Source of the DNA: Elusimicrobiota bacterium | GTDB lineage: Bacteria > Elusimicrobiota > Elusimicrobia > Elusimicrobiales > UBA9959 | Direction of reading: 5' to 3' | Assembly (NCBI GenBank): GCA_016234365.1 | Contig: JACRER010000071.1 | Location: 1-36,475, forward strand | Length of the DNA stretch: 36,475 nucleotides | Part shown: piece by piece, positions 3,752-25,119 of the stretch | How the letters are laid out: each line of letters opens with the position of its first letter | How positions within the stretch are numbered: the first letter of the stretch is position 1 | Notes under the pieces: model-generated | What the model saw: only the letters and a program-made list of their open reading frames with translations | Database searches by the model: none | What the model was told of the DNA's origin: nothing | Made by a program: the position numbers and the translations under genes

Positions 3752-3762
3752 ACGGAGGCACC

Positions 3763-4752: not shown

Positions 4753-4762
4753 CCGCCGGCCC

Positions 4763-7547: not shown

Positions 7548-7551
7548 GACC

Positions 7552-8445
7552 ATGCCAGAAAACGTAAACTGCGCCGTCTGCGGCGGCTCCTCCGGAAAGC
7601 TCCGCTACACCGTGGAAGGGTTTAACCTTGTGGAATGCCGGTCCTGCGGCCTGCTGTACGTCAACCCGCGCCTTACCAAGGAAGAGCTGGCCGGCATCTA
7701 TTCCTCCTCCGACTATTACCGCAGTAAAGACCCCATGACCTGCGGCTACACCGACTACATCTCGGACAGGGCCAACATAACCCTGACCTTCGAACGCCGC
7801 CTGCGGACGATGGAAAAAATGCAGCAGAAAGGCCGCATACTGGACTTCGGCTGCGCCAGCGGCTTCTTCCTGGACGCGGCGCGCGCGCGAGGCTGGGAGG
7901 CCCGCGGCGTGGAGATCTCCGGGTTCGCCTCCGCCTACGCCAGGGAGAAACTCGGGCTGGACGTACACACCGGCAGGCTGGCCGAGCTGAAGCTGCCCGA
8001 CGGCCATTTCGACGCCGTCACGATGTGGGACGTGATAGAACACATGACGGACCTCGGGGCCGATTTTGCGGAGATAACCCGCGTACTTAAACCCGGGGGC
8101 TTGCTGGCCGTGCAGACGCCCAACGCCGGCAGCCTGATAGCCAGGCTCACCGGCGCCAACTGGGCCTGCCTGCGGCGTCCGTCGGAACATATTTTTTTCT
8201 TTTCCCCCCGCACCATCAAGGCTTTCCTGGAAAGCGCCGGCTACGAGGACGTCCGGGTGACGGGCGCCGACGCCGGCAAGGTCTGCGACGTGGATTTTGT
8301 ACTCAACCGCCTGCGCGCCTACGGCGACACTTTCTTTTCCGCGGCCGCCAGGCTGGCAAAGTGGTCGGGCCTCGGCCGCAAGTCCGTCTACGTGAGCATC
8401 GGCGACAATATGATAGCCTACGCCAGAAAGAAGCGCGCGGCCTGA
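7552..8445 (+). CDS. SAM-dependent methyltransferase with N-terminal zinc ribbon
   Basis: A 297-residue class I methyltransferase. The N-terminus holds a four-cysteine zinc ribbon (C7, C10, C29, C32). The SAM-binding motif ILDFGCASG covers residues 96-104, followed by the acidic GVEISG strand and the AVTMWDVIEHM motif. A late hydrophobic HIFFFSP segment is common in sugar methyltransferases of this Methyltransf_12/13-plus-zinc-ribbon group. It starts 4 nt after the radical SAM gene and is followed 18 nt later by a GT-C transferase. O- or C-methylation of a sugar in the glycan is the probable function. Related enzymes act on NDP-sugars or finished glycans, and which applies here cannot be told. 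Confidence 0.82.
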   Translation: MPENVNCAVCGGSSGKLRYTVEGFNLVECRSCGLLYVNPRLTKEELAGIYSSSDYYRSKDPMTCGYTDYISDRANITLTFERRLRTMEKMQQKGRILDFGCASGFFLDAARARGWEARGVEISGFASAYAREKLGLDVHTGRLAELKLPDGHFDAVTMWDVIEHMTDLGADFAEITRVLKPGGLLAVQTPNAGSLIARLTGANWACLRRPSEHIFFFSPRTIKAFLESAGYEDVRVTGADAGKVCDVDFVLNRLRAYGDTFFSAAARLAKWSGLGRKSVYVSIGDNMIAYARKKRAA

Positions 8446-8463
8446 CGCGCCGGGCAGGGTAAC

Positions 8464-10071: not shown

Positions 10072-10072
10072 T

Positions 10073-11932
10073 ATGTGCGGAATACTCGGCAAGATCAACT
10101 ACTCCTCCGGCGCGCCGGTGCGCGAAGCGGAGCTCAAGCGGCCGCTCTTCGAGATGCTGCACCGCGGCCCCGACGACGAAGGCGTGCTGGCGGACCGCAA
10201 CTGCGGCCTGGCCATGCGGCGCCTCAAGATCATAGACCTGGAAGGCGGCCACCAGCCGGTCTTCAACGAGGACCGCACGCTGGCCCTGGTGCTCAACGGC
10301 GAGATCTACAATTACCGGGAACTGCGCCGCGAGCTGGAGCCGCGCCACCGCTTCACCACCAACTCCGACACGGAGGTGCTGGTGCACCTTTACGAGGAGC
10401 TGGGCGAAAAATGTCTCGAGAAATTGAACGGCATGTTCGCCTTCGCCGTCTGGGACGCGAAAAAGCAGGAGCTTTTTATCGCCCGCGACCGCGCCGGGGT
10501 TAAACCGCTTTTCTACGCGGACCTGGGCGGCACGCTGTACTTCGCGTCCGAACTTAAATCGCTGCTGGCCTTCAACGGCATGCCGCGCGATATTGACTCT
10601 CAGGCGCTCGTCGACTACCTTTCTTTCTACTACATCTCCTCCCCCCGCTCCATCTTCAAACACATCCGCCGCCTGCCGCAGGGGCACTGTATAAAGGTGA
10701 CCGGCAAAAAAACCGAGGTGCGGCAGTACTGGCATTACCGTTTCCGCCCGGCCAAGATGACCGAGGACGAGGCCGCCGAGCGCCTGGAGGCGGCACTGCT
10801 CTCCTCCGTGAAGCGCCAGCTGGTCAGCGACGTGCCTCTGGGCGTGTTCCTTTCCAGCGGCCTGGATTCCACGGCGATAGTGGCCATGATGGCCAAGCTG
10901 GGCGTCACCCCGAAGACCTACACCGTGGGCTACGAGGGCGGCGGCACCTACAACGAACTGCCGGAGGCGCGGCTGGTGGCGCAGAAATACGGGACCGACC
11001 ACCACGACTGCCTGCTGGGCCCCGCAGATATCCGCGAGCAGCTGCCCAAAGCCGTGCGCGGTTTCGCCGAGCCGCACGGCGACTGGACCTACCTGGCCAT
11101 GGGCCACGTCTCCGCCCAGTCGCGCCGGGATATTACCGTGGCGCTTACCGGCGCCGGCGGCGACGAACTTTTTGCCGGTTATCCCACGCTGACCGCGGCC
11201 AAGGTGGGCCGCATTTACCAGTACCTGCCCGGCCCCGTGAAAGCCGCAATAAAAGCCGCGGCCGACCGCCTGCCGGTCTCCACGCGGCGGCTTAGCCTGG
11301 ACTTCAAGATAAAATCTTTCGCGCGCGGCGCCGCCTTCAAACCCGAAGTGGCGCACATGAAGTACAAGGAGATCCTTACCCCGGAGGACATCCGGGCGCT
11401 GCTGCCCGGGCATAAGCACGCGGACCCGTTCGAGGTATTCGCGCAGCACCTGCCCGCCGTGGCTTCCGACCGGCTGCTCAACCGCCTGCTTTACCTGGAC
11501 CTGAACGTCTTCCTGCCGTACTGCTCGCTGCATTCCACGGACCTGGTCACCATGTTCAACTCGCAGGAAGCGCGCGTGCCGTTCCTGGACAACGAAATGA
11601 TAGCGCTCTCCGAGGAGATGCCGCTGGAACTGAAGATGAAAGGCTTCACCACCAAGCACATCGTCCGCAAGGCGCTGCGGCGCTACCTGCCGGAAGAGAT
11701 CCTGAAGATGCCCAAGAAGGGTTTCAACATGCCCACCGCGGAATGGCTCAAAGGCGACCTGAAGGACTTCGCGCTGGACGCCCTGCATGCCGCAAGGAAG
11801 AAAAACCCTGACTTCTGCGACTACTCTTACGCCGAGAAACTTATGAAAGAGCACCTGGAAGGCCGGCGGGACAACAGCCGCAAACTGACCTGCCTGGTCT
11901 CCCTCTTCCTCTGGCAGGCGGAATATCTGTAA
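10073..11932 (+). CDS. asnB: AsnB-type glutamine-dependent amidotransferase
   Basis: A 619-residue class II glutamine amidotransferase of the asparagine synthase family. Cysteine 2 is the N-terminal glutaminase nucleophile (MCGILG), followed by RGPDDEG (31-37) and NGEIYN (75-80). The ATP-pyrophosphatase loop is SSGLDS (261-266), a slight variant of the usual SGGxDS. The C-terminal KKGFNMP block is standard. It starts one base after the previous stop and ends the operon. It may simply make asparagine, but AsnB homologues inside O-antigen loci (for example WbpS in Pseudomonas) are thought to amidate uronic-acid sugars, and a uronic-acid pathway lies at 13598-16268. Family certain, substrate open. 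Confidence 0.88.
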   Translation: MCGILGKINYSSGAPVREAELKRPLFEMLHRGPDDEGVLADRNCGLAMRRLKIIDLEGGHQPVFNEDRTLALVLNGEIYNYRELRRELEPRHRFTTNSDTEVLVHLYEELGEKCLEKLNGMFAFAVWDAKKQELFIARDRAGVKPLFYADLGGTLYFASELKSLLAFNGMPRDIDSQALVDYLSFYYISSPRSIFKHIRRLPQGHCIKVTGKKTEVRQYWHYRFRPAKMTEDEAAERLEAALLSSVKRQLVSDVPLGVFLSSGLDSTAIVAMMAKLGVTPKTYTVGYEGGGTYNELPEARLVAQKYGTDHHDCLLGPADIREQLPKAVRGFAEPHGDWTYLAMGHVSAQSRRDITVALTGAGGDELFAGYPTLTAAKVGRIYQYLPGPVKAAIKAAADRLPVSTRRLSLDFKIKSFARGAAFKPEVAHMKYKEILTPEDIRALLPGHKHADPFEVFAQHLPAVASDRLLNRLLYLDLNVFLPYCSLHSTDLVTMFNSQEARVPFLDNEMIALSEEMPLELKMKGFTTKHIVRKALRRYLPEEILKMPKKGFNMPTAEWLKGDLKDFALDALHAARKKNPDFCDYSYAEKLMKEHLEGRRDNSRKLTCLVSLFLWQAEYL

Positions 11933-11998: not shown

Positions 11999-12685
11999 TT
12001 ACTTTACGGGAGTCTTGCCGGTAACGCAGATGCTGGCGTTGGCCTTGCCGTGCGCCTTTACCACTTCGTACACGGTCTTGGCGTCGGCCTTGGACAGGCG
12101 CACACAGCCGTGCGAGGCCGGCTGGCCCAGCAGGGCTTCGGCGTTGGTGGCGTGCATGGCTATGTTGCCGTTGAAGAAGATGGAGTTGGGCATGGGCGCT
12201 TTATTGTAAAGGCTGGAGTAATGCATCTCCTCCATAAAATCCGGAGCGAAGCAGCGGCCGCTGCCGGGGGTGCCGTGCTCCGGCGCCAGGCCGGTGGAGG
12301 TCTTGAAGACCTTGTTGAGTTCCGGGGATTCCAGGGTAACTCGCTGGGCGCCCAGGTCCACGGTCAGGCGGACCACGGCCTTCTTGGCGGCCTCGTTGTT
12401 TATCATGAACCGCCCCGGGATAGCGTCCCCCACGGAAGGCGGCAGGCCGTAAACCATGCTCAACTCGGCGGGGGTGTGTTCGTCCACGAATTTATCGGGA
12501 TCGGCCTGGGCCTCGGCGCGCAGCGCGGCCAGGCGCTGTTGCGTGGCGGCATCATCGGCGCTGGGCGCGCTTACCGCGGGCAGCCCCTTCAGCTCGGCGT
12601 CCTTGCTGAGCCCGGGCAGGTCGAAAGCCATGGCGCCGCCGGAGAATAGCAGGATGAGGGCAGCGGTGGAATTAATGGTCTTCAT
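11999..12685 (-). CDS. secreted L,D-transpeptidase (YkuD domain)
   Basis: L,D-transpeptidases form 3-3 cross-links in peptidoglycan or attach proteins to it, working in the periplasm. The 228-residue protein starts with a signal peptide (residues 1-20, ending AMA). The YkuD core is in the C-terminal half. H178 in NIAMHAT and the signature SHGCVRL (191-197) with nucleophile C194 give the catalytic pair. The ATG is preceded by a good AAGGAG site (12693-12698) and a possible -10 TAGTAT (12709-12714). It is divergent from a second L,D-transpeptidase of a different family. Residues 21 to about 90 match nothing I recognise. Function is well supported; whether it cross-links or anchors proteins is not. 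Confidence 0.9.
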   Translation of the reverse strand: MKTINSTAALILLFSGGAMAFDLPGLSKDAELKGLPAVSAPSADDAATQQRLAALRAEAQADPDKFVDEHTPAELSMVYGLPPSVGDAIPGRFMINNEAAKKAVVRLTVDLGAQRVTLESPELNKVFKTSTGLAPEHGTPGSGRCFAPDFMEEMHYSSLYNKAPMPNSIFFNGNIAMHATNAEALLGQPASHGCVRLSKADAKTVYEVVKAHGKANASICVTGKTPVK

Positions 12686-12775: not shown

Positions 12776-12795
12776 GGCCCACCCGCGCGTGGGTC
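12776..12795. promoter_or_regulatory. inverted repeat upstream of the second L,D-transpeptidase
   Basis: Arms 12776-12782 and 12789-12795 pair over 7 bp with one G-T, around a CCGCGC loop. It lies just upstream of the -10 box at 12809 inside the 139-nt divergent gap, so it could be an operator. It lacks a T-run, so it is not a terminator. Confidence 0.3.
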
Positions 12796-12808
12796 CTTTG
12801 ACTTTTTG

Positions 12809-12814
12809 TATTAT
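12809..12814 (+). promoter_or_regulatory. -10 box of the second L,D-transpeptidase gene
   Basis: TATTAT ending exactly 10 nt before the ATG at 12825, with no ribosome site in between. This is the same geometry as at 2518-2523 and 16279-16284 and points to a nearly leaderless mRNA. Confidence 0.45.
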
Positions 12815-12824
12815 ATCCGTAGTT

Positions 12825-13523
12825 ATGCTGCGCGCCCTCAAAAATGTTTTTTTTGCCGGTTGCCTGCTGGCCTGCCTCTGCGCGCAGGCCCCGGCGGGAC
12901 CGGCGCTTTCGGAATTGATAACAGGACTCCCCCTCGCGGCCCGCAGCGTTCCCCCCGCCCCTATTCCGTTCCCCGTGCGCGCCGGTTACGAATACCTGGA
13001 CCCCGGCCACCTGGTCCCCGCCCAGGCGTTGGCCGCGGCGCTCAACTACTACCGGGCCAACCTGGCCTCCCTGGGCAATCCCCGCTACCTTTCCGTGATA
13101 GACTACACCCGCCACGCCAACGAGAAAAGATTTTTCGTGGTGAACATGAACACCGGCGCCGTGGAGAGCTTTCTGGCGGCGCACGGCAGGGGCTCTGACC
13201 CTGACCATACCGGCTACGCCGCTTCTTTCTCAAACGTCCCCGGCTCCCAGGCCACCTCGCTGGGAATTTTCCTGACCGGCGACACCTATAGCGGGGACAA
13301 CGGTTATTCCCTGCGACTTTACGGCATGAGCCCCGCCAACAGCAACGCTTTCACCCGCGCCATAGTCATACACGGCGCGCCGTACGTTAATCCCGCCAAC
13401 GTCCCGCTCGGCCGCAGCCAGGGCTGCCCCGCCGTGGAAATGGGCGTGCGGACCCGCCTTATAAACATGCTCAAGGGCGGCTCCGTTATCTATTCCTGGC
13501 ACGAGCGCTTTTCAGCCGAATAA
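12825..13523 (+). CDS. secreted murein L,D-transpeptidase catalytic domain protein (YkuD_2 family)
   Basis: A 232-residue exported protein. I start it at the ATG at 12825 because a signal peptide (residues 1 to about 24, ending near AQAPAG) begins there; an in-frame GTG at 12789 adds residues that break this pattern. The catalytic region has H183 in VIHGA and the GRSQGCPAV block with nucleophile C201, the arrangement of the YkuD_2 group rather than the SHGCVRL of classic YkuD. Cysteines 13, 17 and 19 lie in the signal region, but no clear lipobox is visible. It is divergent from a classic YkuD gene and ends at a hairpin terminator. Likely a peptidoglycan L,D-transpeptidase in the periplasm. 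Confidence 0.85.
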   Translation: MLRALKNVFFAGCLLACLCAQAPAGPALSELITGLPLAARSVPPAPIPFPVRAGYEYLDPGHLVPAQALAAALNYYRANLASLGNPRYLSVIDYTRHANEKRFFVVNMNTGAVESFLAAHGRGSDPDHTGYAASFSNVPGSQATSLGIFLTGDTYSGDNGYSLRLYGMSPANSNAFTRAIVIHGAPYVNPANVPLGRSQGCPAVEMGVRTRLINMLKGGSVIYSWHERFSAE

Positions 13524-13597: not shown

Positions 13598-14728
13598 TTA
13601 GCGTCCAGTATGCGCAAAAGAAAAGGCCCTGACCGCCTCTATAACGGCGGCCTGCTGGGCCTCGGTCATTTCCGGAAACAACGGCAGCGACAGCACCGAG
13701 GACTGGTGCCGGTAGGCGTTAGGGAAGTCTTCCGGCCTGGCGCCCAGCCGGGCGTAGGCCGGCAGGAACGGCAGCGCTGCGGGATAATTTATCACCGTCT
13801 CGATGCCGCGCTCGGCCAGGAATTTTTTCAGCTCGTCGCGGCGGGCGTGGCGCACCACGTAAAGGTGGTAAACATGCTCGCGCCCGCCGGCGGTTATGGG
13901 GATATCCAGCCCCTCTATACCGGACAACTCGCGGTCATATACCCCGGCCAGGCGGCGCCGCATAGCGGTCCAGGCTTTGAGCTGCTTCATCTTAACTGAC
14001 AGGACCGCGGCCTGCAGGCCGTCCATGCGGCTGTTGACGCCTTCTATGCGGTGTTCGTTCTTCACCAACCCGCCGTGGCGGGCCAGCATGGCCATGCGCT
14101 CGGCCAGCGCGCCGTCGGCCGTGACCAGCGCCCCGGCGTCGCCCATGGCGCCCAGGTTCTTGCCGGGATAAAAAGAGAAGGACCCGGCCGCGCCGAAAGT
14201 GCCTACGGTCCGGCCGTTGCAGGTAGCTAGGTGCGCCTGCGCGCAATCCTCCAGTACCCAGAGCCGGTGCCGCCGGGAAATATCCATTATCCGGCCCATC
14301 TCGGCCGCCTGGCCGTACAGGTGGACCGGGATGATGCCTACGGTGCGCGGAGTGATCCTGGCTTCGATCAGCGCCGGGTCCAGGGTAAAGGTGTCCTCGT
14401 CGGTGTCGCAGAACACCACCGTCCCGCCGGCCTGCGTCACGGTCTCGCTGGTGGCTATCCAGGAATGGGCCGGGATTATAACTTCGTCGCCGGGCTTCAC
14501 GCCCAGCGCGCGCATGGCGATATAGAGCGAGTCCGTGCCGTTGCCGCAGGAAACGCAGTGCGGCGCGCCTATGAGCGCGGCGAATTCTTTTTCAAAAGCG
14601 TCCACGTAGGGCCCGCGGATAAACGCGGAAGAGCCGATGACGCCGGCGATGGCCGCGTCCATTTCCTTCTTTATAGAGAGGTACTGGGCGTGCAGGTCGG
14701 CGAACGGGACCTTGGCTTGCTTGCTCAC
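13598..14728 (-). CDS. WlbC/WbpE-like nucleotide-sugar aminotransferase (DegT family)
   Basis: A PLP-dependent aminotransferase of 376 residues. It has the GNGTDSL block near residue 62, E160-D161, and the PLP lysine K190 in FYPGKNLGAMGDAGA. It is the third gene of a tight module with a Gfo/Idh dehydrogenase and a hexapeptide acetyltransferase. In the Wlb/Wbp pathway the dehydrogenase makes the 3-keto form of UDP-GlcNAcA, this enzyme adds the 3-amino group from glutamate, and the acetyltransferase finishes UDP-GlcNAc3NAcA. It starts with GTG, overlapping the upstream stop by four bases (GTGA). It is only moderately like the DegT protein at 2621-3751, so the two probably serve different sugars. 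Confidence 0.87.
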   Translation of the reverse strand: MSKQAKVPFADLHAQYLSIKKEMDAAIAGVIGSSAFIRGPYVDAFEKEFAALIGAPHCVSCGNGTDSLYIAMRALGVKPGDEVIIPAHSWIATSETVTQAGGTVVFCDTDEDTFTLDPALIEARITPRTVGIIPVHLYGQAAEMGRIMDISRRHRLWVLEDCAQAHLATCNGRTVGTFGAAGSFSFYPGKNLGAMGDAGALVTADGALAERMAMLARHGGLVKNEHRIEGVNSRMDGLQAAVLSVKMKQLKAWTAMRRRLAGVYDRELSGIEGLDIPITAGGREHVYHLYVVRHARRDELKKFLAERGIETVINYPAALPFLPAYARLGARPEDFPNAYRHQSSVLSLPLFPEMTEAQQAAVIEAVRAFSFAHTGR

Positions 14729-15192
14729 GGCAGGTCCTTTATGCGGCGCGCCGGGTTGCCGGCGTAGACGCCCGGCTTGGTTATGTCCTTGGTGACCACG
14801 GCGCCGGCGCCTATCACCGCGCCGCCGCAGATCGTCACCGGCAATATGGTGGCGTTAGAACCGATGGAAACTCTATCGCCTATCTTAGTGGCGCCCCAGA
14901 GGCTCTTGTCCCCGCCGGCCGGGCGGCCTTTAACGAACTTGTCGTTGACGAACATTACGCCGTGGCTGATGAAGCAGTCGTCGCCTATGGTGACAAGCTC
15001 GCAGACGAAAGCGTGAGACTGGACCTTGCAGCGTTTGCCTATTGTGGCGCCCTTCTGTATCTCCACGAAAGGACCGATGCGGGTGTCGTCGCCTATTTCG
15101 CAGCCATACAGGTTGGAAGGGCCGGTAACTTTTACGCCCTCGCCGAACTTCACGTCGGCTATGCCGGCCAGTTTTATTTCGGGCTTTCCCAT
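14725..15192 (-). CDS. WlbB/WbpD-like sugar N-acetyltransferase (left-handed beta-helix)
   Basis: A 155-residue acyltransferase built almost wholly of hexapeptide repeats (for example IGPFVE, IGKRCK, IGDDCF, IGDRVS, IGSNAT), which fold as a left-handed beta-helix and trimerise. It ends with the family YAGNPARRI tail. Such enzymes transfer acetyl from acetyl-CoA to the amino group of a UDP-sugar. In this module it would acetylate the 3-amino group of UDP-GlcNAc3NA. Its start overlaps the dehydrogenase stop by one base (TAATG). The alternative, a dTDP-amino-sugar acetyltransferase of the FdtC type, is less likely given its neighbours. Confidence 0.85.
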   Translation of the reverse strand: MGKPEIKLAGIADVKFGEGVKVTGPSNLYGCEIGDDTRIGPFVEIQKGATIGKRCKVQSHAFVCELVTIGDDCFISHGVMFVNDKFVKGRPAGGDKSLWGATKIGDRVSIGSNATILPVTICGGAVIGAGAVVTKDITKPGVYAGNPARRIKDLP

Positions 15193-16268
15193 TATTTCCC
15201 CCCCAGGCGGGTCTTTTTCGGGCGCGAGCGCAGGCTCACCTCGCGCTTGGTCTCAATGGATTCGTAAATGCCGGCTATCAGCTCCAGGCTGCGGCGGCCC
15301 TCGGCCCCGTCCACCAGCTGCTTGGCGTGGTTGTTGACGCAGTCCACCACGTGCTCGTAGTAGGCCTTGTGGCCGAAACCGTACACGTCGGGCGGGTTGA
15401 CGGAATATTTAGCCATTACTTCCGCGTCGTCCGGCCCGGCTTCTTTAAAATTCCAGGTCTTCATCTGGTTCACGGCGAAGCCGCCTATCTCCACGGCGCC
15501 GTTCTCTCCCAGTATGGAGATGGACCCTTCCAGGTCCTTGGGGCGGGCGGCGGTGGTAGCCTCTATCACGCCCAGCGCCCCGTTCTGAAAGCGCAGGCTC
15601 ACCACGGCGGTATCCTCGGTCTCTATCTTGACCAGCGCGGTGGCGCTCATGGCGTAAACGCCTTCCACGTCGCCCATCATCCATTCCAGCAGGTCCACGT
15701 GGTGGCTGGCCTGGTTGGCCAGCACGCCGCCGTCCAGCGCCCAGGTGCCGCGCCACTTGTCCTGGTCGTAATAGGCCTGTTCGCGGCACCAGCGCACGCG
15801 CACCGTGCCCAGCACCAGTTTGCCAAAGCGCCCCGCCTCGAGCGCCTGGCGCAGTTTGACCACCGGCACGTTAAAGCGGTTCTGTTTGACGACAAAAAGC
15901 TTCACGCCCGCGTCCGCGCAGGCCTTTATCATGGCGTCCGCGTCGTCGAGCGTGAGCGCCATGGGTTTTTCCACGATGATATGTTTCTTGAATCCGGCAA
16001 GGGCCACTACGTGCCTGGCGTGGTTGCCGCTCTCGGTGAGCACGGAGACGGCGTCCACCGGTGTTTTGGCCATCATCTCCAGCATGTCCGTATAGTACGG
16101 CACGCCGTATTTCTCGCCCAGCGCCTTCGCTTTGGCCGGCACGATGTCGCAGACCGCGGCGAGCCCGGCCCCCGCTATCTGACCGCGTCCCAGCAACTCG
16201 GCGTGCCGCTGCGCAATGCGCCCGCAGCCCACCAGCGCTATCTTCAGATCGGGTTTTCCGGAAGCCAT
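15192..16268 (-). CDS. WlbA/WbpB-like Gfo/Idh/MocA dehydrogenase
   Basis: An NAD-dependent oxidoreductase of 358 residues, with the Rossmann loop GCGRIA (14-19) and the family EKP motif (E100-K101-P102). The blocks NRFNVPVVKLRQALE, YYDQDKWRGTWALDGG, NQASHHVDLLEWM and EATTAARPKDLEG match what I recall of WlbA/WbpB, which oxidises C3 of UDP-N-acetylglucosaminuronic acid. I start it at the ATG at 16268; an in-frame TTG at 16319 adds 17 residues upstream of the fold and has no ribosome site. No Shine-Dalgarno lies before 16268 either, but a TAGAAT box is 10 nt upstream. WbpA, the UDP-GlcNAc 6-dehydrogenase that would supply the substrate, is not in the window. Confidence 0.88.
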   Translation of the reverse strand: MASGKPDLKIALVGCGRIAQRHAELLGRGQIAGAGLAAVCDIVPAKAKALGEKYGVPYYTDMLEMMAKTPVDAVSVLTESGNHARHVVALAGFKKHIIVEKPMALTLDDADAMIKACADAGVKLFVVKQNRFNVPVVKLRQALEAGRFGKLVLGTVRVRWCREQAYYDQDKWRGTWALDGGVLANQASHHVDLLEWMMGDVEGVYAMSATALVKIETEDTAVVSLRFQNGALGVIEATTAARPKDLEGSISILGENGAVEIGGFAVNQMKTWNFKEAGPDDAEVMAKYSVNPPDVYGFGHKAYYEHVVDCVNNHAKQLVDGAEGRRSLELIAGIYESIETKREVSLRSRPKKTRLGGK

Positions 16269-16278
16269 AACAGGACTT

Positions 16279-16284
16279 ATTCTA
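16279..16284 (-). promoter_or_regulatory. -10 box of the WlbA/B/C-like operon
   Basis: TAGAAT on the minus strand, ending exactly 10 nt before the ATG at 16268, with no ribosome site between. An overlapping GATAAT lies 8 nt further upstream. No -35 match. Confidence 0.45.
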
Positions 16285-16326
16285 TCATTATCCGGAGCGC
16301 ATTTGCCTAACGGGGCCAAAAGAGGA

Positions 16327-16355: not shown

Positions 16356-17315
16356 ATGTATCGGGAAAAAAAGATCTCGCTGGTAATACCCGCCTATAAC
16401 GAGGAAAAGCTCATCCTCCACACCCTCCAGGGCGTGCCGCCGCTGATAGACAAGGTCTACGTGGTGGACGACGTGAGCCCCGACCGGCAGGCGGACGTGG
16501 TGCTGGAATACGCCAAGAAGGACCCCCGCGTAACGCTGCTGCGCCACAAAGTGAACCAGGGTCCCGGCGGCGGCATCATTACCGGCTACTTACAGTCGGC
16601 CGCGGACGGTTACGACATAGCCATGGTGGTGGGCGGCGACAACCAGATGCAGCTGACCGAAGCCGCTAACTTCCTCGACCCGCTCATCGACGGGAAGGCC
16701 GACTACGCCAAGGGCAACCGCTTCCTGGACTCCAAACTGGAGGATACCCTCGCGAAAATGCCGAAGATCCGCCTGTTCGGCAACTGGCTCATCACCGCGC
16801 TCACCAAGATCTCTTCGGGCTACTACAAGACCATGGACGTGGTGGACGGCTACACCGCCATCACCAAAAAGGCCATAGAGACCGTTAACTGGAACCGCGC
16901 CTGGAAAGGCTACGGCTACCCTATGGACTTCCTGGTGCGGCTCAACGCCTACGGCCAGCGGCTGGTGGATATCCCCCGCACGGCCGTCTACCTGCCCGGC
17001 GAGCGGCAGAGCCAGATAAAAGGTTTTAATTACGCCATGAAGGTCTCGCCCATGCTGGTGCGCGACTTCTTCTGGCGGCTCAACTTCAAGTACATGTACC
17101 GGGACTTCCACCCGCTGGTCTTCTTCTACTACCTCGCGCTGCTGCTGCTGCCGCTCGGACTGCTCGACGGGGCCTGGCTGGTCTACGACAAGCTGTTCTG
17201 CGGCGGCTTCGCCGTCACGGCGCCGCGCTCCATACTGGTGGCGCTTATGCTGATCTCCGGCACGCAGTTCCTGCTGTTCGCCATGCTCTTCGACATGGAG
17301 CAGGCAAATAAATGA
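16356..17315 (+). CDS. membrane-anchored GT2 glycosyltransferase (DPM1/GtrB-like)
   Basis: A 319-residue GT2 enzyme with the IPAYNE start, D38-D39 in VVDDVS and a GGDNQMQ block in place of the usual QDAD, so the metal site is a variant. After residue 240 there are two hydrophobic helices, as in GtrB-type polyprenyl-phosphate glucose or sugar synthases. It has a good ribosome site and opens the second rightward operon. It overlaps the following GT-C gene by ATGA, which suggests that it makes the lipid-linked sugar that the GT-C protein uses. Longer than and distinct from the two short GT2 proteins in the left locus. Confidence 0.83.
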   Translation: MYREKKISLVIPAYNEEKLILHTLQGVPPLIDKVYVVDDVSPDRQADVVLEYAKKDPRVTLLRHKVNQGPGGGIITGYLQSAADGYDIAMVVGGDNQMQLTEAANFLDPLIDGKADYAKGNRFLDSKLEDTLAKMPKIRLFGNWLITALTKISSGYYKTMDVVDGYTAITKKAIETVNWNRAWKGYGYPMDFLVRLNAYGQRLVDIPRTAVYLPGERQSQIKGFNYAMKVSPMLVRDFFWRLNFKYMYRDFHPLVFFYYLALLLLPLGLLDGAWLVYDKLFCGGFAVTAPRSILVALMLISGTQFLLFAMLFDMEQANK

Positions 17316-18553
17316 TCCGCAAGCTGGCGGCCTGGTTCGAGCCTGAACGAAACTTCCTCGCCGCCTGGCTGGGGCTGGCTTTCCTGCTGCGCCTGGCTTT
17401 CGCGCTGAAGACCGGCGCCGCCGGCCTCTCCCCCGACGCGTACGACTGGGTGAACACGGCCTGGTCCGTGGCTACAGGGCAGGGTTTCGGCGGTTCATGG
17501 CGGCCGCCGGGCTACGCTTTTTACCTGGCGGGGATCTTCCTCGTTTTCGGCAAGTCGGTAATGATAGCCAAGGCGGCCAACGCGGCGCTCGGAGCGGCCA
17601 CGGTCTGGGCCGTCTACCTCGCCGCCAGGGACCTCTTCACCCCGCGCTCCGCGCGCATAGCGGCGGCGCTGCTGAGCTTCTACCCGTACCTTATCGCCTA
17701 CTCCGGCGACCTGCTGAGCGAGACTTTCCTCACCTTCATCCTGGCGGTCTCGGTGCTGGCCATAGTCAGGGCCGGCCTGCGCCCGTCGTGGAAGACCGCG
17801 GCCGCGGCCGGCGCCGCCATGGGCCTCACCGCCCTCACCAAGTCCACCGTCCTGCCGTTCTTCCTGCTGGCCTGCGCCTGGATCTGGTGGCGCTCCGGCA
17901 GTTTCAGAGCCGGCTTCCTGGCCGGCGTCTTCACGCTGCTCACCATAGCCCCGTGGACGCTGCGCAACTACTACCATTACGACAAGTCCTACGTCATGCC
18001 GGTGAACACTCCCTGGTACAGCCTCTACGGCGGCGCCTGCGACGAGGCGATGGTGCCGGAGTCCCTGCCGGAACTGGATTCCCCCCCTACCGACGCGATG
18101 TTCGCGCCGGCCATCCCGAAGGACTGGGACTATGTTTCCAAACTGCCCCTGCCCGAACGCGACAAGTACTGCAAGGAGAAAGCGCTCTCCTGGATAAAGA
18201 ACAACCCGGAGAAGTTCCGCACGCTGCTCTGGGGGCGCTTTAAACATTTCTGGCACCTCTACCCCGTCATGGCCTGGCCCTGGCAAAAGCGGGCCGCCCT
18301 GTTCACTTCCGGAGTGTACATACCGTTGTGCGCGCTCGGTTTCGTGGCCGGCTGGCGCCGCTGGCGCGACACTTCGCTGCTGCTGGCGCTGCTGGCCTCC
18401 TACACCGCCGTCCACCTTTTCTTCACGGTCACGCTGCGCTACCGCGTGCCCATAGACCCCTACGTCATCATCATGGCCGCCTTAGCGCTGGACCTGGCCA
18501 TGAATAAACTCCGCCCCGCGCCCGGCGCGGCGGCAAAGGACCAGAAATCATGA
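17312..18553 (+). CDS. GT-C membrane glycosyltransferase (GT39/PMT_2-like)
   Basis: A 413-residue polytopic protein with a run of hydrophobic helices. An acidic loop after the first helix (SPDAYDW, D42 and D45) and a following RPPGYAFYL block are typical of PMT_2-type enzymes that use polyprenyl-phosphate sugars on the periplasmic side. It lies between a GtrB-like GT2 (4-nt overlap) and an epimerase (4-nt overlap), so all three are probably translated together. The acceptor, lipid, glycan or protein, is unknown. It shows no close similarity to the other GT-C protein at 8464-10071 beyond the general architecture. Confidence 0.78.
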   Translation: MIRKLAAWFEPERNFLAAWLGLAFLLRLAFALKTGAAGLSPDAYDWVNTAWSVATGQGFGGSWRPPGYAFYLAGIFLVFGKSVMIAKAANAALGAATVWAVYLAARDLFTPRSARIAAALLSFYPYLIAYSGDLLSETFLTFILAVSVLAIVRAGLRPSWKTAAAAGAAMGLTALTKSTVLPFFLLACAWIWWRSGSFRAGFLAGVFTLLTIAPWTLRNYYHYDKSYVMPVNTPWYSLYGGACDEAMVPESLPELDSPPTDAMFAPAIPKDWDYVSKLPLPERDKYCKEKALSWIKNNPEKFRTLLWGRFKHFWHLYPVMAWPWQKRAALFTSGVYIPLCALGFVAGWRRWRDTSLLLALLASYTAVHLFFTVTLRYRVPIDPYVIIMAALALDLAMNKLRPAPGAAAKDQKS

Positions 18554-19581
18554 AAGTACTCGTCACCGGCGGCTGCGGCTTCCTCGGTTCCCACCTCTGC
18601 GAATTCTACGCGAAGAAAGGCGCCCAGGTCATAGCCTACGACAACATGACCAAGCACGAGCTGGCCCGCACCGGCTTCGCGGCCGAAGAGGCCCGCGTGC
18701 ACAACTGGAACTACCTCAACAAGCTCGGCGTAAAACTGGTAAAGGCCGACGTGCGCAACCTGGAGGAGCTGCAAGACCACGCCTCCGGCTGCGACTACAT
18801 CGCGCACACCGCGGCCCAGCCGGCCATGACCATCAGCTGGGAAGACCCGCTGCTGGACGCCACCACCAACGTGATGGGCACTTTCAACGTGCTGGAGACG
18901 GCGCGCAAGCTTAAGATCCCGGCCGCCTGCTGCGCCACCATCCACATCTACGGCAACAAGATCAACTCAGAGCTGACCGAAGCGGCAGACCGCTACGTCC
19001 GCAAGCCGGCCGCCATCGCCGAGAGCTACGAGCTGCTGCAGGGCGTGCTGACCCCGCTGCACGCCTCCAAGGCCGCCGGCGACGTCTACATCCGCGCCTA
19101 TATCGACACCTACAAGCTGCAGGCCGCCAGCTTCCGCCTGACCGGCATCTACGGCACGCGCCAGTTCGGCGGCGAGGACCACGGCTGGGTGGCCAACTTC
19201 GCCATCCGCGCGGTGACCGGCCTGCCCATCACCATCTTCGGCACCGGCAAGCAGGTGCGCGACATCGTCTACGCCACGGACGTCTGCGAGGCCTTCGACG
19301 CGTTCTACCGCACCCGCAAGCCCGGCGTCTACAATATCGGCGGCGGCGAGCGCACCGCCATCTCGCTGCTCAACTGCGTGGATATCATCGCCAAACTGGA
19401 AGGCCGCAAGCCCAGGGTGGACCTGGCCGCGGACCGGCACGGCGACCTGCGCTATTTCATCTGCGACGCGTCCAAGGCGGAAAAAGACCTGGGCTGGAAG
19501 GCCAAAGTGCTGCCCGAAGAGGGCATAGGCCGCCTGCTGGGCTGGATCCGGGACAACAAGACCGTTTTCGCGGGGAACTGA
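18550..19581 (+). CDS. NAD-dependent nucleotide-sugar epimerase-like protein lacking the usual catalytic tyrosine
   Basis: An extended SDR protein of 343 residues with the loop GGCGFLG (7-13) and clear resemblance to CDP-paratose/tyvelose 2-epimerases (AHTAAQPAMT, YGTRQFGGEDHGWVANF, TIFGTGKQVRDIVY). The active-site motif, normally YxxxK, reads L-H-A-S-K at 170-174: the lysine is present but the tyrosine is leucine, confirmed in the DNA (CTG CAC GCC TCC AAG). The S-T-N segment of the family is also changed (ATIHIYG). It could be a subfamily that uses another residue, or a non-epimerising binder. It overlaps the GT-C gene by ATGA and is followed 3 nt later by a nucleotidyltransferase, so it likely works on that enzyme's product. 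Confidence 0.8.
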   Translation: MKVLVTGGCGFLGSHLCEFYAKKGAQVIAYDNMTKHELARTGFAAEEARVHNWNYLNKLGVKLVKADVRNLEELQDHASGCDYIAHTAAQPAMTISWEDPLLDATTNVMGTFNVLETARKLKIPAACCATIHIYGNKINSELTEAADRYVRKPAAIAESYELLQGVLTPLHASKAAGDVYIRAYIDTYKLQAASFRLTGIYGTRQFGGEDHGWVANFAIRAVTGLPITIFGTGKQVRDIVYATDVCEAFDAFYRTRKPGVYNIGGGERTAISLLNCVDIIAKLEGRKPRVDLAADRHGDLRYFICDASKAEKDLGWKAKVLPEEGIGRLLGWIRDNKTVFAGN

Positions 19582-19584
19582 CGC

Positions 19585-20295
19585 ATGAAAGCTCTTATAC
19601 TGGCTGGCGGCAGGGGTAAACGGCTGGGCGACCTGTCGGAGAACAGCAACAAGTGCATGCTGAAGGTGAACGGCCGGCACGTTATAGAATTCAGCCTCGA
19701 CCACGCCGTCTCCGCCGGGGTGGACGAGGTAGTGGTAGTGGTGGGCTACCGGGCCGAAGAGATAATCAACCATTTCGGCATCGCCTACAAAGGCAAAAAG
19801 CTCAAGTACGTCATCCAGACCGAACAGCGCGGCCTGGTGCACGCCATAGAATGCGCGGCCGGCGCGCTGGCCGGTGACGATTTCATGCTGCTGCTCGGCG
19901 ACGAGATCATGAAAGCCCCGCGCCACCGGGAAATGATCGAATACTTCAAAAAGACCGGCGCTTTCACGGTCTGCGGCATCCTGAAGGTACAGGACCGCTC
20001 CCTGATCAGCAAGACCTACACGCTGGTCAAGGACGACAAGGACGTGATCTCCCGGCTGGTGGAGAAGCCGCGCAACCCTCTCAACGACCTGATGGGCACC
20101 GGCGACTGCGTCTTCCGCAACGCCATCCTGAAATACATCGAGTTCACGCCCATCCACCACGAGCGCAACGAGAAGGAGCTGCCCGACCTAATCCAGAGCG
20201 CCATCGACGCCGGAGAGACCGTACGCGCCTTCATGATCTGCGAGAAGTACGCCAATATAAATTCCGTAGAGGATATAAGCCACGACCTGGCCTGA
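19585..20295 (+). CDS. sugar-phosphate nucleotidyltransferase
   Basis: A 236-residue NTP_transferase-fold protein with the nucleotide-binding loop GGRGKRL (8-14), a KCMLKVNG block in place of the usual KPxLPVxG, and an LLLGDEI metal segment. It would activate a sugar-1-phosphate (or a similar phosphorylated headgroup) with a nucleoside triphosphate. It follows the atypical epimerase by 3 nt and precedes a radical SAM gene by 27 nt. It differs clearly from the PtmE-like protein at 4763-5458, so the locus appears to activate at least two different substrates. Neither the nucleotide nor the sugar can be read from the sequence. Confidence 0.8.
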   Translation: MKALILAGGRGKRLGDLSENSNKCMLKVNGRHVIEFSLDHAVSAGVDEVVVVVGYRAEEIINHFGIAYKGKKLKYVIQTEQRGLVHAIECAAGALAGDDFMLLLGDEIMKAPRHREMIEYFKKTGAFTVCGILKVQDRSLISKTYTLVKDDKDVISRLVEKPRNPLNDLMGTGDCVFRNAILKYIEFTPIHHERNEKELPDLIQSAIDAGETVRAFMICEKYANINSVEDISHDLA

Positions 20296-20322
20296 ACTTC
20301 ACCGCGCAGCCGCCCATACCGC

Positions 20323-21789
20323 ATGCCCGCAAATAAAGACATCCTGCTCATAGTGCCGCCCTCGCGGACCTACACCCAGTGGCTGCCGTTCGGCCTCATG
20401 CACATTTCCTCCTACCTGACGGCGCAGGGCGAAGATAACGATATAATCGACCACAAGGCCATCGGGGAGCGCGAGGCCTTCGACCGCATCCGCGCCCGGG
20501 TCGCGGCGGAAAAACCGCGTTTTATCGGCGTGACCTGCATGGTTTCCGAGATCGCCATGGTAAAGGAACTCTGCCTGGCCATACGGCAGGCCTCGCCGGA
20601 GTCCGTGATCGTTATAGGCGGGCCGCAGCCCAGCAGCAGCCCGAAACATTTTATCGAGTTCGGGGTCCCGTTCGATTACCTGGTTCTCGGCGAGGGCGAG
20701 CGCACCTTCCACGAACTGGTCCTGGCGCTGCGCGCCGGGCGGCCGCCGGAAGGCGTGAACGGCCTGGGCTACGTGCGCGGCGGCGAACTTAAACTTACCA
20801 CCGCCCGCGCCCACATAGAGGACCTGGACACCCTCCCGTTCCCCGCCTACGACAAGGTGGATATGGCTTACTACTGCCGCCCCAACGTCTGGACCATCCG
20901 GCCGGTCTACATCTCCAGCTTCAACATCTTCACCGTGCGCGGCTGCTGCTTCCAGTGCAATTTCTGCGTGGAGCACACCGTCTTCGGCCGCAAGGTCCGC
21001 AAGATGAGCCCGGCCCGCGCGGCGGCCCATATAGAGCACGTGATCGCCAGATACAAAGTAGACGCCATCTATTTCATGGACGAGCTGTTCACGCTGGACG
21101 GCGCGCGCATCCGCGAACTGTTCCGCCTGCTCGACGAGCGCGGCGTGCGAATAGTCTTCGGCTGCCAGACGCGCGTGGACCTGGTGGACGAGGACCTGGC
21201 CCGTTTCATGCGGGCGCACGGCTGCCTGCAGATAGATTTCGGCATAGAGTCCGGCTCGCCCAAAATGCTGGAAGGCATGAACAAGCGCACCACGCTGGAA
21301 CGCATCATAAAGACCGGCGAGATCTGCAACCGCACAGGCATCCGCCACCTGGCCAACATGATGCTGAACCTGCCCGGCGAGGAGATGGCCGACATAGAGG
21401 CCTCGCTGCAACTGGCCAAGCGCATGCGCTACAACCTGGTGCTCTGGAACGTCTACATGCCTTTCCCCGGCTCGGGTTTCGGCCGCACGCTGGAGCTGGA
21501 AGATTTCGAGACCATCATGCGCTACCCGGCCAAGCCGGCCATAGACCTGCTGGAACGCAAATACAAGTTCGGTTCTTACAGCATGCGCCTCGAGGACCTG
21601 CTGGATTACCTGCACCGCTACACCTTCCACCCTAAGTATTTCAAGTTCGTTCTCAACGGCGCCTATTGGCGTTCCATGTTCCAGGTGATGCGCTTTCTGA
21701 TAGACCCGCTGTACCTCGGGGCCCTGCTGCGCAGCCGCCGCAAACTGGAATACATCACCAACGTTTTCAAACAAGTCACCACCATGTAA
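20323..21789 (+). CDS. second B12-binding-domain radical SAM protein
   Basis: A 488-residue enzyme with an N-terminal cobalamin-binding domain (VPPSRTYTQWLPFG, IGGPQPSSSPKHF, VLGEGERTFHELV, residues 1 to about 145) and a radical SAM barrel with C208, C212 and C215 (CxxxCxxC, with an extra cysteine at 209). The fold continues through FGIESGSP and NLPGEE segments. It is only distantly like the first copy at 6141-7547. Placed between a nucleotidyltransferase and a GT4 glycosyltransferase (2-nt gap), it probably alters a sugar or lipid in the glycan pathway, for instance by C-methylation or carbon-skeleton chemistry. Substrate unknown. Confidence 0.87.
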   Translation: MPANKDILLIVPPSRTYTQWLPFGLMHISSYLTAQGEDNDIIDHKAIGEREAFDRIRARVAAEKPRFIGVTCMVSEIAMVKELCLAIRQASPESVIVIGGPQPSSSPKHFIEFGVPFDYLVLGEGERTFHELVLALRAGRPPEGVNGLGYVRGGELKLTTARAHIEDLDTLPFPAYDKVDMAYYCRPNVWTIRPVYISSFNIFTVRGCCFQCNFCVEHTVFGRKVRKMSPARAAAHIEHVIARYKVDAIYFMDELFTLDGARIRELFRLLDERGVRIVFGCQTRVDLVDEDLARFMRAHGCLQIDFGIESGSPKMLEGMNKRTTLERIIKTGEICNRTGIRHLANMMLNLPGEEMADIEASLQLAKRMRYNLVLWNVYMPFPGSGFGRTLELEDFETIMRYPAKPAIDLLERKYKFGSYSMRLEDLLDYLHRYTFHPKYFKFVLNGAYWRSMFQVMRFLIDPLYLGALLRSRRKLEYITNVFKQVTTM

Positions 21790-21791
21790 CA

Positions 21792-22991
21792 ATGAAGATC
21801 TGCTTCGTCTCCTCCTCCTTCCCCCGCAAGTATCCGGACCACATAGCGCCATGGTTCAGGCCCATCACGCAGGAATTCCTGAAGCGCGGCCACTCCCTGT
21901 CCGTCTTTGTGCCCGCCTACCGCGGCAACGCGCAGACGGAGTACGAGGGGGCCGAGGTTTGCCGCTTCCGCTACGCCCCCGAGCGCTGGGAGCGCCTTAC
22001 GCACGAGGATTCCTCCCCCGCCATGCTGCACAGCCCGCTGTGGAAGCTGGTGCTGCTCTCCTACGTGGTCTGCGGTTCGCTGCGCGCGGCCATCTATTTC
22101 TCGCGGCGGCGCTTCGACGTGATAGACGTGCACTGGCCCTTCCCGCAGGCCGTGTTCGGCATCATCGGCAAGCTGCTGACCGGCGCAAAGCTCGTCTACC
22201 ATTTTTACGCCTCCGAGATCCTGCTCATCCAGCGCAGCTTCCTGCTGCGCAAGCTCTTCGCCCTCATGATGCCGTTCGCCGACGAAGTCATAGCCATCTC
22301 CGGCCCCACCAAAGACTGGGTGGAGACCATGATAAAGCCGAAACTGCCGGTGAAAGTGGTCTACCTGGGCAACACGCTGCCCTACCCGGACAAACCCTCG
22401 CCCCACAACCCGGATTTCACAAAAGAACCGCTGCGCCTGTTCTACGCCGGCAAGCTCATAGAACGCCTGGGGCCCCAGTACCTGCTGGAAGCCGCCCGCA
22501 TCCTGAAGGAAAAGGGCACGGACTTCCGGCTGGCCGTGGCCGGCACCGGCTACCTGCACGATGAGATCGCGGCAAAGATAAAGGCTTACGGCCTGGAAAA
22601 GAACGTGGAGCTGCTGGGGTTCATCTACAAGGAACGCCTGGCCGAGGAATACCTGAAGTGCCACATCTTTATTTTCCCGTCGGTGGTGGACTCCCGCGGC
22701 GACACCACGGGCCTGGGCATGGTAGCCATGGACGCCCTCTTCTACGCCCGCCCGGTGATAGCCTCTGAAGTTGGCGGCGTGGTGGACATAGTCATAGACG
22801 GCAAGACCGGCTACCGGGTTGCGCAGAAGGATACCGCGGCGCTGGCGGCCAAGATACTGCAGGTCCGGGACAATTACGCGCAGGCCGCGGCGCTGGCCCT
22901 GAAAGGCCGCCGCTACGCCGAGGAGAATTTCTCCTGGGACGCGGTCACCTCCCGCATGCTCTCGGTCTTCTCCGGTGGTGCCAATGCTTAA
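21792..22991 (+). CDS. GT4-family glycosyltransferase
   Basis: A 399-residue GT-B enzyme. The start at 21792 follows the previous stop by two bases and begins with the family N-terminal strand (KICFVSSSFPRKYPDHIAPW). The C-terminal half carries the donor-binding YAGKLIERLGPQYLL and LAVAGTGYL blocks, then GDTTGLGMVAMDAL. In that last block the second glutamate of the canonical EX7E motif appears as aspartate, so donor binding may differ slightly. It would act in the cytoplasm, adding a sugar to the lipid-linked glycan. It overlaps the following flavoprotein gene by 8 nt. Confidence 0.85.
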   Translation: MKICFVSSSFPRKYPDHIAPWFRPITQEFLKRGHSLSVFVPAYRGNAQTEYEGAEVCRFRYAPERWERLTHEDSSPAMLHSPLWKLVLLSYVVCGSLRAAIYFSRRRFDVIDVHWPFPQAVFGIIGKLLTGAKLVYHFYASEILLIQRSFLLRKLFALMMPFADEVIAISGPTKDWVETMIKPKLPVKVVYLGNTLPYPDKPSPHNPDFTKEPLRLFYAGKLIERLGPQYLLEAARILKEKGTDFRLAVAGTGYLHDEIAAKIKAYGLEKNVELLGFIYKERLAEEYLKCHIFIFPSVVDSRGDTTGLGMVAMDALFYARPVIASEVGGVVDIVIDGKTGYRVAQKDTAALAAKILQVRDNYAQAAALALKGRRYAEENFSWDAVTSRMLSVFSGGANA

Positions 22992-24282
22992 GACGGACGT
23001 ACTGATAATAGGCGGCGGCCTCGCCGGCCTTTCGGCGGCCAAGGCGCTGGAAGGCAAAAAAAGCTATATCGTGGCCGAGCGCGAGAACCGCCCTGGCGGC
23101 CTTTCCTCCACGGTCAAAAAAGGCGGCTTCCACTTCGACTATTCCGGCCACCTGCTGCACCTGCGCTGGCCAAAAACTTCCAAATTCATCCTGGACGCCC
23201 TGGGCTCCAACCGCAGGCGCCTCCGGCGCGACGCGCGCGTTTTTGCGCACGGCCGCTGGACCGGGTTCCCTTTCCAGGCAAATCTCGCCCCCATGCCGCA
23301 GAAGGTTAAAGCGGAATGCGTCAGCGCTTTCCTCAAGGCCTGGCGCGCGGGCGCCGGCCCCGGCGACGGTTCCGAGGTCTTCAGCCGCTGGACGCGCCGC
23401 GTCCTGGGCGAGGGCATCTCCCGGCATTTCATGCTGCCCTACAACGCCAAACTCTGGCAGTACCCGCTGGAGCGCCTGACCACCGAATGGTGCGCGCCGT
23501 TCGTGCCGATGCCGCGCCCCGAAGAAGTCATCGAGGGCGCCTACGGCGGGCGCACCGAAGGCCTGGGCTACAACACTTTCTTCCATTACCCGAAGCGCGG
23601 CGGCATAGGCGCGCTCTCCAACGCGCTTGCGGCCGGCTCTTCCGGCCTGCGCCTGGGGCTGGAAGTGGAAAGCGTCGACTTACGCAAGGGCGTGGCGCAG
23701 GTCCGCCATTTCGGGCCCGTACATTTCAAGCGCCTCATCAACACCTCGCCGCTGAACAGCTTTACCGCCATGTGTTCGGACGCCCCAGCCGCCGTGAAAC
23801 GCGCCGGGGCAGCACTCCGCCACAACACGGTCTACGTGCTCAACCTCGGGGCTCGCGGCGTACGCCAGGAACTGCACTGGGGCTATTTCCCGGGTGAAGG
23901 CTTCCCGTTCTACCGCGCCGGGCTCGCCAGCAACTTCTCGGCGGAGCTGGCCCCCCGCGGTTGCGCGTCTTTCTATGTAGAATTCGCCACGGCCGGAGAA
24001 GCGCTGGACCTGGCCGCCGCCGAAGCCGCCGCCGTGAAAGGCCTTCGCCGCTGCGGCCTGCTGGGCCCCGGCTCCAAAATAGTGGAAAAGCTCTGGCTCA
24101 AGATTCCCTGCGCTTACGTCGTTTACAACAGGGAGCGCGCCGCCGCCCTGCCCGTAATAAACTCCTGGCTCAAGGCCAAAAAGGCGCAAAGCATTGGCCG
24201 CTACGGCGCCTGGAAGTATTCCTTCATGGAAGAAAGCGTGAAAGAAGGGCTCGAGGCCGCAGGTTCGCTGCTCGCGCGCTGA
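22984..24282 (+). CDS. FAD-dependent oxidoreductase (protoporphyrinogen oxidase / UDP-galactopyranose mutase-like)
   Basis: A 432-residue flavoprotein with a dinucleotide loop GGGLAG (10-15) and the ERENRPGG block that binds the FAD ribose. The rest (FDYSGHLLH, LPYNAKLWQYPLERL, YPKRGGIGALSNAL) places it in the amine-oxidase/protoporphyrinogen-oxidase superfamily, in a group often found in polysaccharide loci. I start it at the ATG at 22984; the in-frame GTG at 22975 adds three residues. The heme role is unlikely here since no heme genes are near. A mutase-like or desaturase-like action on a sugar or polyprenyl group is possible. The next gene follows after 3 nt. Confidence 0.8.
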   Translation: MLKTDVLIIGGGLAGLSAAKALEGKKSYIVAERENRPGGLSSTVKKGGFHFDYSGHLLHLRWPKTSKFILDALGSNRRRLRRDARVFAHGRWTGFPFQANLAPMPQKVKAECVSAFLKAWRAGAGPGDGSEVFSRWTRRVLGEGISRHFMLPYNAKLWQYPLERLTTEWCAPFVPMPRPEEVIEGAYGGRTEGLGYNTFFHYPKRGGIGALSNALAAGSSGLRLGLEVESVDLRKGVAQVRHFGPVHFKRLINTSPLNSFTAMCSDAPAAVKRAGAALRHNTVYVLNLGARGVRQELHWGYFPGEGFPFYRAGLASNFSAELAPRGCASFYVEFATAGEALDLAAAEAAAVKGLRRCGLLGPGSKIVEKLWLKIPCAYVVYNRERAAALPVINSWLKAKKAQSIGRYGAWKYSFMEESVKEGLEAAGSLLAR

Positions 24283-24285
24283 CCC

Positions 24286-25119
24286 ATGGCTTACCGCTAC
24301 CCGCTGGCAGGAAAAGAACTGCGTGTCCTGGCCGCCCTGCCGGTACTCCTCGTCGCTTTGTCCGCCGGTTACGTGCTGTGGCTGCCCGACGTAAAAGAAT
24401 TCAAGGTCAAAAACCCATCGGCGACCTCCTTCATGCGCATTAAAGAGGGCCAGGCGCGCGCGCAGGGCCGCAGGCTGGGCCGGGAGATGATCTGGACGCC
24501 GTGGGACCGGATCTCGGAGAACCTAAAGCACGCCGTGCTGGTGGCCGAGGACGACGGGTTCTACCTGCACAAGGGCGTGGACTGGGAGAGCACCCGCAGG
24601 GCCATGGCCGAGGACCTGAAGAAAGGCCGCTTCGCCAAGGGCGGCAGTACCATCACGCAGCAGCTGGCCCGCAACCTCTACCTTTCCCCCTCCAAGAACC
24701 CGCTGCGCAAGATAAAAGAGATCCTGATAGCGCGCCGCCTGGAGAAGGACCTGGGCAAGCGGCGCATCTTCGAGCTTTACCTGAACGTGGCTGAATGGGG
24801 CAAGGGCGTATACGGCTGCGGCGCGGCGGCGCAGGCATATTTCGGCAAGTCCGCCGCGGACCTGACCCCGGAGGAAGCCGCGGCGCTGGCGGCGGCGCTG
24901 CCCAGTCCCCGGCGCTACAACCCGGCCGGCGGCACGCGCTTCATGGAGCGCCAGAAGAGCCGCATTGTCGCGCGCATGCGCGCCTCCGGCTACCTGCCCG
25001 ACGAGGCGGAAGACGAAGACCTGCAGGATTCGCTTGAAGTTATCACCTCGACCGAGGTGACCGTAACAGTGGCGCCGGCTCCCGCCGACGTTATCCCTAG
25101 TCCAGTATCCCGGCCTTGA
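24286..25119 (+). CDS. mtgA: monofunctional peptidoglycan glycosyltransferase (GT51)
   Basis: MtgA polymerises lipid II into glycan strands at the outer face of the inner membrane. The 277-residue protein has one N-terminal membrane helix (about 11-33) and a GT51 domain with the catalytic AEDDGFYLHKG block (E88), GGSTITQQLARN (119-130), an RKIKEILIARRLE stretch and ELYLNVAEWG. No transpeptidase domain follows. The last 40 residues are an unusual acidic and then Pro/Val/Thr-rich tail. It is the last gene of the second glycan operon, 3 nt after the flavoprotein, and its final 23 nt overlap the 3' end of dapA on the other strand. Confidence 0.9.
   Translation: MAYRYPLAGKELRVLAALPVLLVALSAGYVLWLPDVKEFKVKNPSATSFMRIKEGQARAQGRRLGREMIWTPWDRISENLKHAVLVAEDDGFYLHKGVDWESTRRAMAEDLKKGRFAKGGSTITQQLARNLYLSPSKNPLRKIKEILIARRLEKDLGKRRIFELYLNVAEWGKGVYGCGAAAQAYFGKSAADLTPEEAAALAAALPSPRRYNPAGGTRFMERQKSRIVARMRASGYLPDEAEDEDLQDSLEVITSTEVTVTVAPAPADVIPSPVSRP

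Follow-up and report, generated by a model that had tools for sequence, protein, structure and literature searches.

The seven co-directional genes between positions 16356 and 24282 of a 36,475 nucleotide stretch of DNA from an Elusimicrobiota bacterium (contig JACRER010000071.1 of assembly GCA_016234365.1; the whole stretch is hereafter termed the window) constitute a patchwork within a surface-polysaccharide locus, and not one pathway. An insert within this patchwork carries a genuine functional unit of two genes, which encode an extended SDR of the CDP-tyvelose 2-epimerase (TyvE) type (EPI) and a nucleotidyltransferase (NT). The EPI-NT pair most likely makes a dedicated NDP-sugar, and a patchwork locus with EPI-NT as its sugar-donor unit is the best explanation of the data as a whole, and a probable one. 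The NDP-sugar SDRs are textbook enzymes, of which the YxxxK tyrosine is regarded as the catalytic base. A family in which this tyrosine and the substrate-contact residues are replaced, which has its own NT and which occurs in many bacterial and archaeal phyla, may thus point to a sugar donor that is absent from current glycan maps.

Organisation of the gene block

All seven open reading frames are intact, are encoded on the forward strand and have family matches above the Pfam cut-off values. The first two code for a GT2 glycosyltransferase with hydrophobic C-terminal segments (16356–17315; PF00535, E 1.8e-17) and a GT-C membrane glycosyltransferase of the PMT_2 type (17312–18553; PF13231, E 1.4e-12). 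The former shows a weak AglJ-like match (TIGR04182) below the cut-off, and may represent the polyprenyl-phosphate sugar synthase type. They are followed by EPI (18550–19581), with a Pfam match to the NAD epimerases, NT (19585–20295; PF00483, E 3.4e-27), a B12-binding radical SAM protein (rSAM; 20323–21789; PF04055 and PF02310) in which both the CX3CX2C motif (GCCFQCNFC) and the B12-binding domain are present, a GT4 glycosyltransferase (21792–22991; PF00534) and a flavoprotein (22984–24282, with a GTG start at 22975 also possible) matching the FAD/NAD-binding oxidoreductases in Pfam. Overlaps of 4 nt are found at both the GT2/GT-C and GT-C/EPI junctions, gaps of 3, 27 and 2 nt separate EPI from NT, NT from rSAM and rSAM from GT4, respectively, and the GT4 and flavoprotein genes overlap by 8 nt with the ATG start at 22984 or by 17 nt with the GTG start at 22975. 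The preliminary description of seven tightly spaced open reading frames is confirmed in its coordinates and junctions, with an eighth gene to be added, as the block runs past 24282. The mtgA gene (24286–25119, forward strand; TIGR02070 above cut-off), encoding a monofunctional peptidoglycan glycosyltransferase, starts 3 nt after the flavoprotein gene and ends the co-directional block. While MtgA passes one NCBIfam cut-off, none of the seven preceding proteins reaches any. What had been termed simply a flavoprotein can be named more closely, its nearest solved relatives being eukaryotic UDP-galactopyranose mutases (UGM; 3uka, E 2.9e-43), and UGM-like core enzyme is the most fitting name for it.

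Further sugar-related genes are located upstream in the window. A divergent DegT aminotransferase, hexapeptide acyltransferase and Gfo/Idh/MocA dehydrogenase are encoded at 13598–16319 on the reverse strand, a trio which we take to resemble the WbpB/D/E (Wlb) diacetamido-sugar route. Both this trio and the GT2 gene are present in three congeners (L177, L181 and L183), and neither is found at that place in the other nine examined. A second polysaccharide block on the forward strand (2621–11932) has its own DegT, epimerase, nucleotidyltransferase, DPM-like GT2, methyltransferase, GT-C and AsnB, as well as a B12 radical SAM protein (6141–7547), and its makeup parallels that of the 16356–24282 cassette. 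Two different, divergent genes of the L,D-transpeptidase type (YkuD and YkuD_2) are situated midway through the sugar locus, at 11999–12685 on the reverse and 12789–13523 on the forward strand.

Composite structure of the block

Among 341 genomes of the home phylum Elusimicrobiota, the seven genes and mtgA occur in identical order in one congener (G231), while a relative in another class (G012) carries GT2-GT-C-EPI-NT-rSAM-GT4 with the flavoprotein absent there. Twelve other congeners encode the flavoprotein and mtgA without EPI. At the same place, seven of these twelve encode GT-C (54–64 % identical) and three encode GT2 adjoining GT-C (86–93 % identical), and in those seven the slot between GT-C and the flavoprotein holds other genes, such as one for a GT9-looking protein (judged by its N-terminus). 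As the flanking genes recur in congeners without it and the slot is otherwise filled, the insert can be delimited to EPI-NT-rSAM-GT4 (18550–22991). The arrangement is one of an exchangeable slot holding these four genes, flanked by GT2-GT-C on the left and the UGM-like flavoprotein and mtgA on the right, both common to congeners. Within the phylum GT4 travels with EPI-NT-rSAM (80 % identity in G231 and 71 % in G012), and rSAM orthologs were found only in G000, G231 and G012. In these three genomes rSAM would be a passenger of EPI-NT. No signal of recent acquisition was observed in base composition, the GC and GC3 values of the insert being in line with those of its flanks, so that by this measure the insert is not recent.

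The flavoprotein is encoded in 267/341 Elusimicrobiota genomes and adjoins mtgA across the genus, and is thus a core gene of the phylum which lies outside the insert. The same adjacency ties a peptidoglycan enzyme to the surface-sugar locus. How the flavoprotein, GT2 and GT-C are distributed bears directly on the reading in the preliminary description, that the seven genes form one dedicated pathway towards a new nucleotide- or lipid-linked sugar. The tight spacing and the seven-gene order kept in G231 are in keeping with such a pathway, but the flavoprotein belongs to the core genes of the phylum and goes with mtgA, congeners have GT2 and GT-C without EPI-NT, and in G012 the first six genes are kept while the flavoprotein is missing. 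This reading is largely refuted and was rejected as highly improbable. What stands of the suggested new activated-sugar route concerns two genes, EPI and NT. Likewise, of the co-occurrence proposed for epimerase, nucleotidyltransferase, radical SAM protein and flavoprotein, that of EPI and NT is borne out very strongly and that of rSAM only in three Elusimicrobiota genomes, while the near-universal, mtgA-linked flavoprotein does not take part in it.

Pairing and distribution of EPI and NT

A collection search with EPI alone recovered relatives, 56–76 % identical, from numerous phyla of bacteria and archaea, and EPI-NT-like pairs are likewise present across many phyla of both domains. An orthologous NT (at least 45 % identity) is encoded within 4 kb of EPI in 56 of 84 EPI loci, and directly downstream (at most 100 nt) in 47. 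A more distant NT-family match is located nearby in twelve further loci, while no NT was found in eleven loci away from a contig edge and in five near one. A fairer test of pairing than these EPI-seeded loci is provided by the survey of a second phylum (that of G342; 198 genomes), where EPI and NT were counted independently. EPI was found in seven genomes, two of them seeds found through EPI and five not, and NT in the same seven, with the two genes adjacent in all seven (17–36 nt apart). Similarly, NT orthologs (at least 54 % identity) occur in 5/341 Elusimicrobiota genomes, all five with EPI alongside (split over two contig ends in G070), with two further weak NT matches at 34 % identity. 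The EPI and NT distance matrices are correlated with r 0.68, the highest value among 2000 permutations being 0.26; part of this correlation may stem from shared descent.

The pairing is not absolute. In seven EPI genomes (G550–G555 and G559; mostly spirochaetes) NT had no match at E 1e-20 anywhere in the genome, and several Leptospirales-type spirochaetes encode EPI without this NT. NT may thus be dispensable to EPI, or be substituted by another nucleotidyltransferase, and it is possible that NT-GT2 fusions serve as replacements in some of the spirochaetes. Such fusions (about 490 aa) are encoded directly upstream of EPI in the Leptospirales-type loci L087, L093, L102, L104 and L106, and in the one fusion read (L087) the NT domain has the usual P-K-P loop. 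No EPI-family member was found in the plasmid and phage collections, where the best identities were 38 % and 30 %, respectively. Two contigs which are viral by collection label only (L189:6001–7720 and L190:6001–7674) contain an EPI-family gene (49–53 % identity) with an NT match just downstream.

Immediately downstream of NT or immediately upstream of EPI, most genes code for glycosyltransferases of the GT4 and GT2 types, and radical SAM proteins are the next most frequent. DPM-like GT2 enzymes account for 11 % of genes up to 2 kb from EPI and for 2–5 % at greater distances. No universal third partner was observed, as the enriched DPM-like GT2 occurs within 2.5 kb in only 28/80 loci. This pattern fits a donor-making pair feeding locally varying transferases.

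The active site of EPI

By both sequence and fold, the nearest solved relatives of EPI are the CDP-tyvelose 2-epimerases (1orr and 9rl0), and its predicted model (pLDDT 91) gave a TM of about 0.9 against TyvE. The catalytic triad of TyvE consists of Thr124/Tyr164/Lys168, and in TaTyvE the N125A and K126A substitutions render activity undetectable, while Q205A results in an about 12-fold loss (PMC13098431). The equivalent positions in EPI are occupied by Thr/Ser130, Ile/Val131, His132, Leu170, Lys174 and His211, with His171 next to Leu170. The Thr/Ser and Lys of the triad are retained and the Tyr is lost, the YxxxK position reading L-H-A-S-K, with Leu at the Tyr164 position in 84/84 distinct family members. 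The epithet tyrosine-less given to this epimerase earlier is thus right, and extends to the whole family. The TNK…YG…Q residues of TyvE are replaced as a set by (T/S)(I/V)H…LH…H across the EPI family (Ala131 in one member). All matches of at least 49 % identity carry (T/S)(I/V)H-LH-K-H, the one Ala131 apart, while those of at most 43 %, if long enough, mostly carry TNK-YG-K-Q. All 84 sequences with Leu-His group together as a single clade, which has a long stem and a support of 0.885. H132, H171, H211 and K174 are invariant in the family, as are R237 and R296, aligned with the pyrophosphate arginines of TyvE, and D210, aligned with the TyvE residue closing over cytosine. The NAD glycine motif is also kept.

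These features allow several readings. With TyvE as the closest solved relative and the NAD motif, Lys and pyrophosphate arginines kept, EPI could be an ordinary TyvE-like CDP-sugar C-2 epimerase in which the residue changes are tolerated. This appears unlikely, given that Tyr164, Asn125 and Lys126 are all replaced, that the corresponding N125A and K126A enzymes are without measurable activity and Q205A is about 12-fold impaired (PMC13098431), and that the replacement set is invariant and defines the clade. The loss of the catalytic Tyr could also indicate that EPI only binds NDP-sugars, without catalysis, in partnership with NT or a glycosyltransferase, but Thr/Ser130, Lys174, the glycine motif and the three new histidines are invariant or nearly so across bacteria and archaea, and there is little probability in this reading. 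Moreover, the NDP-sugar SDRs WbpM and PglF are active without the catalytic Tyr, with Thr and Asp taking over its work, and show that Tyr-less members of the superfamily can be catalysts (PMC8987622). EPI does not carry their UDP-GlcNAc 4,6-dehydratase signature of TDK and Mx3K (PMC8987622), having TIH and Lx3K. As the TyvE-like fold, R237, R296 and D210 are kept and the Tyr set is replaced, EPI is most economically interpreted as an NDP-sugar SDR whose catalytic centre has been altered, although the loss of its Tyr might also mean that it is no redox enzyme. No earlier description of the EPI family was found in the open-access literature searched.

The nucleotidyltransferase

NT comprises a PF00483 domain, and its predicted model (pLDDT 93) folds like GalU and RmlA. 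The usual loop of sugar-1-phosphate nucleotidyltransferases is P-K-P, which is replaced by N-K-C in 52–55 of the 55 paired copies of NT, and the atypical KCM loop noted in the preliminary description is thus a feature of the paired enzymes at large. Segments including T144-Y145, G171-T172-G173 and N224 are invariant in the paired copies. The N-K-C loop and a weak match to the CTP:phosphocholine cytidylyltransferase 1jyk (E 2.4e-08) could suggest that NT activates a non-sugar phosphate, such as a polyol or amino-alcohol phosphate, with EPI oxidising or isomerising the CDP-alcohol. However, the best matches of NT by both sequence and fold are the sugar-1-phosphate enzymes GalU and RmlA, and the pair has glycosyltransferase neighbours, and this alternative is quite unlikely.

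Proposed route

The patchwork make-up of the block, the pairing of EPI with NT and the replacement of the active site throughout the family are shown by the data. As regards reaction, base, nucleotide and sugar, we infer a route in which NT would most likely convert an NTP and a sugar 1-phosphate to an NDP-sugar. EPI would bind the NDP-sugar with NAD and remodel the sugar via transient oxidation, most likely by epimerisation. With the tyrosine gone, the catalytic base is probably a histidine, one of H132, H171 and H211. The product would pass to whichever glycosyltransferase adjoins the pair, which is GT4 in the window, while about one locus in three has a DPM-like GT2. With its tyrosine lost and three histidines gained, EPI may make an activated sugar not known to date. 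A further-reaching proposal is that EPI is the founder of a class of NDP-sugar SDRs with His in place of the catalytic Tyr and an undescribed transformation, and that EPI-NT represents an unrecognised activated-sugar pathway which has spread horizontally across bacteria and archaea; this we put forward tentatively, as somewhat short of an even chance. As EPI and NT are two small, probably soluble enzymes, the presumed sugar donor is directly open to testing.

Comparison with known systems

EPI resembles TyvE/RfbE (1orr and 9rl0) in retaining the NAD motif, Thr/Ser, Lys, R237, R296 and D210, but differs in the family-wide changes of Tyr164 to Leu, Gly165 to His, Asn125-Lys126 to Ile/Val-His and Gln205 to His. 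It shares with WbpM and PglF the status of an NDP-sugar SDR without a catalytic Tyr, whereas these enzymes have T-D-K and Met where EPI has T/S-I/V-H and Leu-His, without an Asp/Lys acid-base pair. NT belongs to the same family and fold (PF00483) as GalU, RmlA and AglF and keeps Lys23 and the EKP segment, but has the N-K-C loop, scores far below every NCBIfam cut-off and is only 20–24 % identical to its best solved fold matches. The flavoprotein shows strong homology to the eukaryotic-type UDP-galactopyranose mutases and keeps most of the residues which we take to contact substrate or flavin (equivalents of His63, Asn207, Trp315, Tyr317, Arg327, Tyr419, Arg447 and Tyr453), but differs from them at the equivalents of Arg182 and Tyr334, both of which are Phe in 56/57 of the homologues examined.
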